A stretch of DNA of 64,000 nucleotides, taken from positions 62,001-126,000 of the forward strand of contig CANMXN010000001.1 in assembly GCA_947501885.1 (NCBI GenBank), given 5' to 3'. Made by a program: the position numbers and the translations under genes. This document shows, piece after piece, positions 25,422-27,516 of this stretch. Under the pieces are notes generated by a model that was given only the letters and a program-made list of their open reading frames with translations, was not told the DNA's origin and searched no databases. The first letter of the stretch is position 1. Each line of letters begins with the position of its first letter. This stretch comes from an uncultured Sphingorhabdus sp. GTDB taxonomy: Bacteria; Pseudomonadota; Alphaproteobacteria; Sphingomonadales; Sphingomonadaceae.

Positions 25422-26549
25422 ATGAAAATCACTATCCTTAAAGAAGCGCTTACGGGTGAGAATCGCGTTGCTGCTACGCCTGAAACGGTTAAAAAATTTG
25501 TTGCATTGGGCGCGAGTATCACGGTTGAAAAAGGGGCAGGGCTTAATGCTTCTATCGCGGATAGTGATTATAAGGATGCTGGTGCTACTGTCAGTGCGCG
25601 ATCCGCGGCAATCAAGGATGCCGATATCGTTATGGGCGTGAATGGGCCTACGCCTGCTAGCCTTAAAGATATGAAGAAGGGAGCTTGGCTTATTGCGGGG
25701 CTTAATCCCTTTGGCGAACGCAAGCGCGTTGATGCTTATGCCAAATTGGGCATAGAGGCTCTAGCGATGGAATTTATGCCGCGCATTACGCGCGCGCAAA
25801 GCATGGATATCCTCTCATCGCAATCCAATCTATCGGGCTATAAAGCCGTGTTAGAAGCAGCATCGCATTATGGCCGCGCTTTCCCGATGATGATGACGGC
25901 GGCAGGAACGGTTTCGGCTGCGAAATGTTTTGTCATGGGGGTTGGGGTTGCGGGCCTGCAAGCCATAGCAACCGCGCGGCGCTTAGGCGCGCAAGTATCC
26001 GCAACCGATGTGCGCGCTGCCACCAAAGAGCAAATCCTATCATTGGGGGCTAAACCAATTTTTGTTGAGAGCGTCGAAGGTATCGAAGGTGAAGGCAGCG
26101 GCGGTTATGCCACCGAAATGAGCGAAGAATATCAAAAAGCACAAGCGCAATTGGTATCATCGCACATTGCAAAGCAAGATATAGTCATTACCACTGCGCT
26201 TATACCTGGACGTCCTGCGCCCAAGCTGATTACTGATGCACAGATTAAAACGATGCGTAGCGGCAGTGTGATTGTAGATTTGGCTGCGGAACAAGGCGGC
26301 AATGTCGCTGGTGCTAAATCGGGTGAAGTGGTCGAGAAACACGGCGTTAAAATTGTGGGTGCTAGCAACATGCCGTCCCTATTGGCGGCCGATAGCAGCG
26401 CATTATTTGCGCGCAATCTCTATAACTTCCTATCCGCTTATTGGGATAAGGATGCAGGTGCGCCTGTGCTGCCCGATGATGATGAAGTGACGATAGGTAT
26501 TCGTCTAACCAAGGACGGTAAAGTTGTGAATGAGAGGTTGTTGGGTTGA
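25422..26549 (+). CDS. pntAA: NAD(P) transhydrogenase subunit alpha, part 1 (NAD-binding)
   Basis: 375 residues covering domain I only, as in the split-alpha transhydrogenases of alphaproteobacteria. MKITILKEALTGENRVAATPETVKKFVALGA is the canonical start. The NAD fold has VMGVGVAGLQAIATARRLGAQVSATD (about 170-196), and DLAAEQGGNVAGAKSGEVVEKHGVKIVG is conserved. The complex moves a hydride from NADH to NADP+ driven by the proton gradient, supplying NADPH. Base composition of this gene is visibly richer in GC (GCGCGC-type codons) than its neighbours. Downstream the operon is interrupted by a small membrane frame and a DUF559 gene before pntAB. Confidence 0.96.
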   Translation: MKITILKEALTGENRVAATPETVKKFVALGASITVEKGAGLNASIADSDYKDAGATVSARSAAIKDADIVMGVNGPTPASLKDMKKGAWLIAGLNPFGERKRVDAYAKLGIEALAMEFMPRITRAQSMDILSSQSNLSGYKAVLEAASHYGRAFPMMMTAAGTVSAAKCFVMGVGVAGLQAIATARRLGAQVSATDVRAATKEQILSLGAKPIFVESVEGIEGEGSGGYATEMSEEYQKAQAQLVSSHIAKQDIVITTALIPGRPAPKLITDAQIKTMRSGSVIVDLAAEQGGNVAGAKSGEVVEKHGVKIVGASNMPSLLAADSSALFARNLYNFLSAYWDKDAGAPVLPDDDEVTIGIRLTKDGKVVNERLLG

Positions 26550-26695
26550 ATTACGAGCATATTAAAACATATATATTCGCAAATAAATTTTGGTTGGCCT
26601 TAATCCTTATCATTATTGCAGGTTATTCAGCCGGAAAAGACACAGCGCAACGAGAGAATTTGCATGATGAATTGGTTAGAACGGGAATAAAATAA
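26546..26695 (+). CDS. Putative small single-pass membrane protein
   Basis: A 49-residue frame beginning at a TTG that overlaps the pntAA stop (TTGA). It reads L/M-NYEHIKTYIFANK, then a hydrophobic helix FWLALILIIIAGYSAG, then a charged tail KDTAQRENLHDELVRTGIK. The single helix, charge balance and stop-start overlap suggest a translated gene, but no family is recognised and no ribosome site other than GAGAGG is visible. The non-ATG start is uncertain. It could instead be intergenic space. Confidence 0.42.
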   Translation: MNYEHIKTYIFANKFWLALILIIIAGYSAGKDTAQRENLHDELVRTGIK

Positions 26696-26728
26696 TGCAT
26701 CCACTATCAATATATCGCTTTCAAATTC

Positions 26729-26772
26729 CTCCCCTGCAAGGGGAGGGGGACCGCGCAGCGGTGGTGGGGTGT
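26729..26772 (+). repeat. Palindromic GC-rich repeat, left copy of inverted pair
   Basis: It starts with the perfect hairpin CTCCCCTGCAAGGGGAG (26729-26745). A second small hairpin ACCGC-GCA-GCGGT (26750-26762) follows, and it ends in GGTGGGGTGT. It matches the reverse complement of the right copy at 26807-26854 over nearly its whole length. Composition is far above the AT-rich surroundings. Confidence 0.9.
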
Positions 26773-26806
26773 CAATATTGATCTCACTGTCTAATCTTGT
26801 GAGGCT

Positions 26807-26854
26807 ACACCCCTCCGACAGCCTTACAGGCTGCCACCTCCCCTTAAAGGGGAG
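26807..26854 (-). repeat. Palindromic GC-rich repeat, right copy in inverted orientation
   Basis: It starts ACACCCCTCCG, carries the hairpin CAGCCT-TAC-AGGCTG (26819-26833), and ends in the perfect hairpin CTCCCCTTAAAGGGGAG (26838-26854). With the left copy it forms a head-to-head pair separated by 34 bases of AT-rich sequence, like the two halves of a REPIN. Its terminal GGGGAG lies 9 bases before the DUF559 start codon and probably acts as the ribosome site. I see no other copy in this window. Confidence 0.9.
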
Positions 26855-26863
26855 AATGTAACT

Positions 26864-27232
26864 ATGTTGCAATGGGACGTTGGTGTTGCTCCTCGAGCAA
26901 AGCGGCTCAGAAAAGAGATGACGATGCCAGAGAATATGCTTTGGAAATGTCTTAAGGGCAGTCCCAGTGGAATTAAGTTTCGCAGACAGCATCCATCTGG
27001 ACCTTATATTGCTGATTTTTATTGTCACCAAGCCAGATTGATTGTTGAAGTTGACGGAATAGCGCATGATTTGGGTGATAATCCAGCAAGAGATGCAAAG
27101 CGAGATGCATGGTTTACAGAACGAAATATAGAAGTGATAAGAGTGAAAGCAGCGGATATTTTGAAAGATTCCATGAATATAGGTCAATCAATTATAGACT
27201 ATGCCAAAGATAAGATAGCTAAGGAAAAATAA
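26864..27232 (+). CDS. DUF559 (Vsr/PD-(D/E)XK-like) endonuclease-domain protein
   Basis: 122 residues. The N-terminus RAKRLRKEMTMPENMLWKCLKG, the central GIKFRRQHPSGPYIADFYCHQARLI followed by VEVDGIAHD, and the end RDAWFTERNIEVIRVKAADIL are the DUF559 family. The candidate catalytic residues are E23, D51, E62, D64 and H68, which fit a Vsr-like nuclease fold; activity is unproven. The gene is inside the pnt operon: its stop overlaps the pntAB start (TAATG), and its last codons supply the pntAB ribosome site (AAGGA). An inverted pair of palindromic repeats lies directly upstream. An insertion origin is likely. Confidence 0.9.
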   Translation: MLQWDVGVAPRAKRLRKEMTMPENMLWKCLKGSPSGIKFRRQHPSGPYIADFYCHQARLIVEVDGIAHDLGDNPARDAKRDAWFTERNIEVIRVKAADILKDSMNIGQSIIDYAKDKIAKEK

Positions 27233-27516
27233 TGGACTTTATATCAATATTATCAATTTTTGTGATGGCCTGTTTCGTTGGTTATTATGTGGTTTGGTCC
27301 GTAACGCCAGCGCTCCATACGCCGCTCATGGCGGTGACCAATGCGATTAGCTCTGTTATCATTGTGGGCGCATTAATTGCGGCCGCAGCAGCGGGTAGTC
27401 CAACAGCCAAATGGCTAGGCCTTATTGGTGTTGTCCTTGCGAGTGTGAATATTTTTGGTGGTTTTGCTGTCACAGAACGTATGCTGGCCATGTATAAGAA
27501 GAAGGAGAAGAAATAA
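27232..27516 (+). CDS. pntAB: NAD(P) transhydrogenase subunit alpha, part 2 (membrane)
   Basis: 94 residues with three hydrophobic segments: about 5-20 (ILSIFVMACFVGYYVVW), 35-55 and 59-82. The conserved GYYVVWSVTPALHTPLMAVTNAISSVIIVGAL and GLIGVVLASVNIFGGFAVTERMLAMY mark the first part of the proton channel of transhydrogenase. It starts inside the stop of the DUF559 gene and ends inside the start of pntB (TAATG), so it is tightly coupled on both sides. Confidence 0.95.
   Translation: MDFISILSIFVMACFVGYYVVWSVTPALHTPLMAVTNAISSVIIVGALIAAAAAGSPTAKWLGLIGVVLASVNIFGGFAVTERMLAMYKKKEKK

Follow-up and report, generated by a model that had tools for sequence, protein, structure and literature searches.

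The window, a 64,000-nt stretch of DNA analysed as a whole, carries the transhydrogenase genes pntAA and pntAB, separated by a small nuclease gene and a pair of palindromes. The first-pass annotation had described a DUF559 gene with a palindrome pair at this position, and both the sequence and the Pfam matches agree with it. The features of the locus are as follows.

25422..26549, + strand: pntAA (transhydrogenase alpha, part 1), the left neighbour, with Pfam matches to AlaDh_PNT_N and _C
26546..26695, + strand: small ORF of 49 codons with a TTG start, between pntAA and the unit (sequence; tblastn)
26689..26724, + strand: left copy in a degenerate direct duplication covering the start of pntAB (alignment; right copy at about 27226-27261)
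26724..26772, + strand: palindromic arm 1, AATT-CCTCCCC-TGCAA-GGGGAGG-GGGACCGC-gca-GCGGTGG-TGGGGTGT
26807..26858, − strand: palindromic arm 2, inverted, with an outer hairpin at 26838-26854 and an inner hairpin at 26819-26833 (sequence and fold)
26864..27232, + strand: DUF559 (PF04480) nuclease gene, 122 aa (Pfam), with E23, D51, E62, D64, H68 and D77 present
27232..27516, + strand: pntAB, the right neighbour (Pfam), without a right palindromic arm before it here

Window hairpin 1 reads CCTCCCC-TGCAA-GGGGAGG (26728-26746) and hairpin 2 CTCCCC-TTAAA-GGGGAG (26838-26854). Outer stems of the form CTCCCC-N5-GGGGAG, a head-to-head orientation and a small inner hairpin in each repeat, all proposed at first inspection, were found in the sequence; the inverted match of about 44 bases proposed with them shrinks to stretches of 21 nt at 86% identity and 10 nt at 90%. 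The two inner hairpins are unlike in sequence and match two forms of a single arm type, both of which recur in other genomes. Folded as single-stranded DNA, the 136-nt dimer has a z-score of -6.35, whereas two nearby stretches of the same length score +1.31 and -0.09; it is therefore not a chance structure. The pattern CTCCCCTNNNAGGGGAG, with up to one mismatch, occurs only at the two window places in the 2.65-Mb genome; a looser motif with two mismatches, expected 0.42 times within the window alone, was seen there twice. A search of the same genome for a further copy of the whole dimer returned none, and a high-copy repeat in the window's own genome is thereby ruled out. Nor do the repeats belong to a known RNA family, the one Rfam match lying far below its cut-off. 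The same genome holds a second DUF559 gene (L001:1492-2045), behind which lies another, different palindrome pair, CCTTCTCCC..GGGAGAAGG and CCCTCTCCC..GGGAGAGGG.

Two further features flank the palindromes on the pntAA side. The small ORF at 26546-26695 has relatives at the same place in genomes G012, G026 and G007 (31-37% identity, tblastn); it looks membrane-like by eye, and its relatives sit in unit-bearing genomes. The roughly 35 nt preceding hairpin 1 resemble the pntAB start, and in three genomes this duplication gives alignment scores of 16, 28 and 21, reached by 3, 0 and 0 of 1000 shuffles. Within the window's clade the duplication of about 35 nt at pnt is in a decayed form.

The protein itself belongs by profile to the DUF559 family (YcjD, COG2852), matching PF04480 with E 1e-25 and 90.1 bits (curated Pfam cut-off 20.6); the NCBIfam equivalog PRK09767 is matched below its cut-off (66.8 vs 218). 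Across 138 aligned sequences, E15, D43, E54, D56 and G57 (alignment numbering) are conserved in 100%, and H60 in 99%, of those with a letter at the position; their equivalents in the window protein are E23, D51, E62, D64, G65 and H68. An AlphaFold2 model built from 44 sequences has a pLDDT of 87.8, low at residues 68-71. Searched with Foldseek, this predicted fold matches best the gonococcal DUF559-type structure 3hrl (E 1.7e-5) and, second among PDB entries, the catalytic domain of the homing endonuclease I-Bth0305I (3r3p, E 5.9e-4). Toxoplasma mitochondrial ribosome proteins follow at E 9.3e-4 and weaker, and Vsr (1cw0) matches weakly at E 0.053. The PD-(D/E)XK, Vsr-like assignment originally made from motifs is thus backed by the predicted fold and the conserved residues. 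YcjD had been put in the PD-(D/E)XK superfamily by 2005, according to an excerpt of PMC1189080. The DUF559 protein VsrA of Caulobacter, studied in vivo, is described in an extract of PMC12907096 as responsible for the SOS response that arises in the absence of a cytosine methyltransferase; its proposed role there is that of a Vsr-type repair enzyme. Assignment to a defence system was tried and rejected, PADLOC giving only weak partial matches to nucleases.

The association of DUF559 genes with palindromes extends far beyond the window. An even draw of 240 genomes from the window's class included 77 with PF04480, and 95 strong matches (E up to 1.5e-25), all from genomes other than the window's, were taken with at most 3 kb on each side, weaker, partial and fused matches being left out. 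Hairpins with a perfect stem of at least 8 and a C/T-rich 5' arm were counted within 300 bp of the edges of the HMM match. Such a hairpin accompanies 77 of the 95 genes, compared with 39 of 1900 random 310-bp control intervals drawn from the same loci at a distance of 900 bp or more. Earlier class counts measured downstream hairpins from the ORF stop and for that reason missed arms inside the reading frame. Any strong hairpin was present at 83/95 loci; under the perfect-stem rule 18 loci have no C/T hairpin and 12 no strong hairpin at all. Density reaches 4.3 per kb upstream and 5.0 per kb downstream at 0-150 bp, falling to 0.09 per kb or less beyond 300 bp. The expectation that the repeats would be enriched at DUF559 genes of other genomes is therefore borne out; as for the more specific idea that they cluster upstream, C/T hairpins do lie upstream of 58 genes, but an upstream pair is just one form of the arrangement, with hairpins downstream of 62 genes and on both sides of 43.

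Wider samples agree in kind. Among other Pseudomonadota outside the class, 15 of 20 near-full-length matches (partial ones left out) have a C/T hairpin and 19 some strong hairpin. A scan of named genomes, in which the best 80 of 231 relatives were kept, mostly Sphingomonadales, and stems of at least 7 with loops up to 12 were accepted, found a C/T hairpin at 55/80 loci and hairpins on both sides at 39/80; some of the other named loci (L196 and L208, for example) carry longer loops that escape the rule. Both Deinococcus plasmid loci examined, out of five Deinococcus records, carry C-rich palindromes of the same kind, one of these genes sitting between paaD and paaZ, and a Photobacterium locus likewise has such palindromes beside its DUF559 gene. 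On a Picosynechococcus plasmid (L341), a DUF559 gene lies amid CCCC..GGGG palindromes with TAGGGG-like tails and may represent a cyanobacterial version.

Chance, or ordinary transcription terminators, would be the simplest source of these hairpins, GC-rich hairpins being common near gene ends. This explanation retains almost no probability in the face of the excess over control intervals, the occurrence upstream as well as downstream of the genes, and a second control: among the genus's small GIY-YIG genes, only 5/28 loci show a strong hairpin no more than 300 bp away and none a CT-type arm, in a count that placed the gene start at base 1501 of each locus, wrongly for two short-flank loci. The association of GIY-YIG nucleases with palindromes is weak only (5/28 loci, 0.65 vs 0.12 per kb), and they were rejected as a parallel palindrome-linked system. 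Individual cases do occur: a GIY-YIG nuclease gene in G002 (L330) has GCCCCGCAC..GTGCGGGGC-type hairpins on both sides, and REP-like hairpins lie near the GIY-YIG genes at L313 and L329. We consider it very likely that DUF559 nucleases and the palindrome families around them form cognate pairs.

The architecture of the arms is well defined in Sphingomonadales. Aligned over 52 upstream and 48 downstream arms of the named loci, the consensus is AAAT-CCTCCCC-loop-GGGGAGG-(TGGC or GGGACC)-inner hairpin-(GACGG or GGTGG)AGGGG, with conservation fading some 4-5 nt outside the stem; a GTAG-type tag was sought in these arms and is absent. Upstream and downstream arms are alike once one of them is inverted, which gives the arm-gene-arm unit terminal inverted repeats. 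Three pnt copies, those of G026, G025 and G036, are built in this way and that of G007 similarly; in G066 a downstream arm accompanies an upstream dimer, and in the window copy and its close relatives G012 and G035 the upstream dimer stands without a downstream arm. As only 43/95 genes are armed on both sides under the strict rule, we infer rather than observe that the window copy is a derived or damaged unit, with one arm missing or displaced and its conserved nuclease residues present.

Comparison of related genomes reveals occupied and empty sites. PntB is encoded in 42 of 45 genomes of the genus, and the pnt junction is readable in 39 (in G022 on the right side only), those of G018, G029 and G062 being left out. 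Nine of the 39 contain a DUF559 gene, 27 an ordinary spacer of 14-23 bp, and three other inserts of 61, 363 and 794 bp; in G028 a further pnt copy contains 456 bp of other sequence. The empty-site allele on which the mobile-unit idea depended is thus the most common state. The DUF559 proteins at this junction are only about half identical to one another, and seven of them do not form one clade on the tree. Since a single clade is unrejected (AU p 0.296), an old insertion followed by losses may have occurred at pnt and would explain part of the pattern.

A second site is glyQ-glyS. Among 30 loci, two hold a unit, 18 have 0-5 bp between the genes, one has a 46-bp solo hairpin and nine have 121-208 bp of other palindromes; a third unit at this site, in G025, was identified from coordinates. 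The GlyQ proteins of G063, with the unit, and G023, without it, are 99.3% identical, and in G023 the sequence runs straight through the junction. The G063 insert, of about 470 bp, is bordered on either side by GCATGA, perhaps a consequence of overlapping stop and start codons. The solo hairpin, in G016 (L289), looks like the footprint of a lost unit. In six of the nine junctions with other palindromes (L276, L278, L279, L282, L285 and L287) the outer end of a DUF559-type repeat, AAATCCTCCCC, opens the intervening sequence, and a CGTC-like palindrome dimer comes next, apparently a nested insertion of two families.

Palindromes also occur in pairs without a gene. A dimer lies in frame within glyS of G063 (L275) and, partly as N, at the same place in G013 (L282); among eight other aligned loci this site holds an unrelated dimer in five and none in three, and longer glyS frames in other genomes suggest further in-frame inserts. 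Nine dimers with TTCAG loops, from five genomes, have a hairpin at each end in inverted orientation, spaced 71-78 nt from start to start. Average identity is 0.87 over the first 34 nt of the cores and 0.29 in the 16-nt flanks outside them. Gene-less dimers sit at unrelated sites, and sites that otherwise correspond either have or lack a unit or a dimer. The proposal that a nuclease-linked palindrome family behaves as a mobile unit is in this way supported, by enrichment and by empty sites, far beyond the window from which it arose. A constant target-site duplication was sought and none emerged: with 6 nt at glyQ-glyS and about 35 nt at pnt there is no single length, and none was discernible by eye in the nine dimers. 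Plasmid searches for an empty allele of the Azospirillum or Sinorhizobium units found none.

A homing-like process could also account for occupied and empty sites: the nuclease would break a chromosomal site or a homologue's palindrome, the unit would be copied in by recombination, and the palindromes would protect or mark its ends without being excised. The second-best PDB match of the predicted fold is a homing endonuclease domain, several viral matches are annotated as homing endonucleases, and a single junction, pnt, holds nucleases of only about half mutual identity. Gene-less dimers with the same arms at many unrelated sites, however, are unexpected from homing alone, and we regard this explanation as unlikely, though it is the strongest of the alternatives.

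Palindrome type follows the nuclease. A tree of 138 non-redundant DUF559 proteins included 99 with one clear stem class (44 TCTCCC, 55 CTCCCC), the remaining 39 being dropped and labels coming from the set in which downstream hairpins were measured from the ORF stop. Stem class changes 14 times on this tree, whereas 300 shuffles average 32.6 changes and never fall below 25; with the window's divergent clade removed the figures are 13 changes against 28.3, minimum 20. Nuclease and palindrome types are co-inherited.

Copy number within the genus tells a similar story. Over the 37 genomes with both kinds of data (eight others dropped; G004 with only a partial PF04480 match in a long frame), the 25 with PF04480 have a mean of 11.2 CCTCCCC hairpins (range 0-64) and the 12 without it 0.9 (0-4), a difference with a Mann-Whitney p of 0.002 in a statistic that ignores phylogeny. 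G036 has 25 CCTCCCC-type hairpins, six of them beside its three DUF559 genes, and by hand count 16 of the 19 dispersed ones share their loop with one of the genome's own unit arms. The TTCAG loop shows the same correspondence: G028, G036, G026 and G025 each combine dispersed copies with a DUF559 gene flanked by that loop. G020 has one TTCAG copy and G007 none, and in G002 (72% complete), with ten copies, a search for a matching DUF559 unit found none. Most dispersed hairpins in the genomes examined match unit arms of their own genome.

Two further explanations are weighed against these data. The palindromes could be regulatory or target sites of a Vsr-like repair or defence nuclease, gene and sites moving together by recombination; such a role would suit the SOS response ascribed to VsrA without the cytosine methyltransferase (extract of PMC12907096) and the weak PADLOC matches to nucleases. 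It predicts neither matching inverted arms at both ends nor gene-less dimers of near-constant size, and likewise neither an in-frame dimer within glyS nor a hairpin number that tracks DUF559 presence, and is accordingly judged improbable. Alternatively, a RAYT (Y1_Tnp) or other transposase might move the palindromes in trans, with DUF559 as a passenger, as similarly built REPIN doublets are linked to RAYTs (excerpt of PMC3116915). The RAYT profile PF01797, the one transposase family covered, was sought in all 45 genomes of the genus and is absent from 41, including G000; it is present in G022, G029, G061 and G025. A weak match (E 3.4e-9) in copy-rich G025, with 34 hairpins, would fit a RAYT; PF01797 was not found in G026, G028, G036, G020 and G063, with 62, 64, 25, 24 and 5 hairpin copies, of which the first four are copy-rich. 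A passenger would moreover not be expected to track stem class. A RAYT as mover is thus disfavoured in this genus at the level of PF01797, and mobilisation by any such transposase appears very improbable.

A system of this kind appears to exist in Escherichia coli too. The DUF559 gene of K-12 MG1655, annotated as encoding a DUF559 protein, is ycjD, located between sapF and fabI; behind it come an imperfect CCCTCTCCC palindrome and CCCCTCGCCCC..GGGGAGAGGGTTAGGGTGAGGGG. The strict perfect-stem rule returns no hairpin at ycjD because these palindromes are imperfect. The 41-nt repeat beside the gene (CCCCTCGCCCC..GGGGAGAGGGTTAGGGTGAGGGG) has matches in 5377 of 5426 E. coli genomes, at a median of 19 places, and the ycjD query is covered to at least 80% in 3363. 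A comparison of 59 chromosomes, taken at even steps with one small record dropped, found 15-30 repeat places in the 37 with ycjD; of those without it, ten have 12-24 and twelve only 3-5, one of the twelve being labelled ST131. The association with ycjD has a p of 4.5e-7 in a statistic that ignores phylogeny. Amplification where ycjD is or was present fits this distribution; lineage alone could give the same pattern. The ycjD-type repeats presumably correspond to the historical box C elements, and rhizobial RIME elements probably resemble them. Some E. coli strains without ycjD carry few of these repeats.

No clean insertion could be documented in E. coli. Strains Nissle (L184) and UTI89 (L185), which lack ycjD, have an efflux operon beside sapF in the sapF-fabI region, so that a clean empty site is ruled out there. 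This agrees with an independent 2026 paper, an excerpt of which states that ycjD in phylogroups A, B1 and C replaces the eef efflux operon (PMC12817139). Clean dimer insertions at two other sites are likewise ruled out: strains differ by the ygfF gene at gcvP-ygfF, and other repeats lie at flgJ-flgK in other strains. The E. coli repeats share with the window family a DUF559 gene with adjoining repeats and differ from it in stem sequence and in having imperfect stems.

The best explanation of these observations, to which we assign a probability of roughly 0.6, is a REPIN-like minimal mobile unit comprising the gene of a PD-(D/E)XK nuclease, Vsr- or homing-endonuclease-like, and its own C/T-stemmed double-hairpin palindromes. 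An intact unit would carry one palindrome at each end as a terminal inverted repeat, and two palindromes without the gene would constitute a non-autonomous dimer, as in REPINs. Judging from sequence comparisons, the nuclease itself probably moves the palindromes. It may recognise its own hairpins in extruded form, as could occur on the lagging-strand template, and nick near the hairpin base, whereupon host replication or repair could copy the released or exposed DNA to a new location. Taken further, and with only slightly better than even odds on the same kind of comparison, DUF559/YcjD genes may represent undescribed minimal mobile elements spanning phyla, whose sole protein is a PD-(D/E)XK nuclease recognising double-hairpin terminal inverted repeats and whose dimers are spread in trans.

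In many bacteria the intergenic regions are filled with short palindromic repeats. If the proposed reading is true, a second, unrelated enzyme would have its matching palindrome family, in Pseudomonadota, at two Deinococcus loci and perhaps in Cyanobacteriota, and the widespread unknown-function protein DUF559 would gain a testable job. Nucleases without a transposase fold, paired with cognate palindromes, may then explain other orphan palindrome families, and E. coli ycjD with its roughly 19 dispersed repeats would be a laboratory version of such an element. As K-12 holds both ycjD and the repeats, the question is testable there. Among the REP families treated in PMC3733652, only the RAYT-linked ones have a proposed mover.

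In the open-licence literature, where absence is not proof, no description of DUF559-linked palindromic repeats was found, nor, among the papers listed, any joining DUF559 with REPIN, RAYT or "REP sequences", which is in keeping with the initial impression that such a system had no prior description. Several known systems invite comparison. The catalytic fold predicted for the DUF559 protein resembles those of I-Bth0305I and Vsr (Foldseek E 5.9e-4 and 0.053 for the model). As regards terminal inverted repeats of the IS-element or MITE kind, palindromes lie on both sides of 43/95 and 39/80 DUF559 loci; the other loci, the window copy included, are armed on one side or on none under the rule used. 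The CGTC REPs of Alphaproteobacteria are likewise palindromes that often form dimers; they differ in their CGTC tag and in A/T at the stem start and, according to Di Nocera et al. 2013 (PMC3733652), are not associated with transposase genes. CGTC-like dimers adjoin remains of DUF559-type repeats in Sphingorhabdus relatives, so both families coexist. The closest parallel is REPIN/RAYT, with which the DUF559 system shares short palindromes, inverted dimers of about 90 nt, the same palindromes beside a nuclease gene, co-inherited types, and few nuclease genes alongside more numerous dispersed copies. REPIN-like dispersal of inverted dimers holds in five relatives; the window's own genome has a single copy. 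The enzyme of REPIN/RAYT is an HUH tyrosine (Y1) transposase, whereas that of DUF559 is a PD-(D/E)XK-type nuclease, and unlike REPINs the DUF559 palindromes are C/T-rich, without a GTAG tag, and stand on each side of the gene in about half of the cases. Since the system has neither the enzyme class nor the tag of REPIN/RAYT, it works like REPIN/RAYT but is no member of it.
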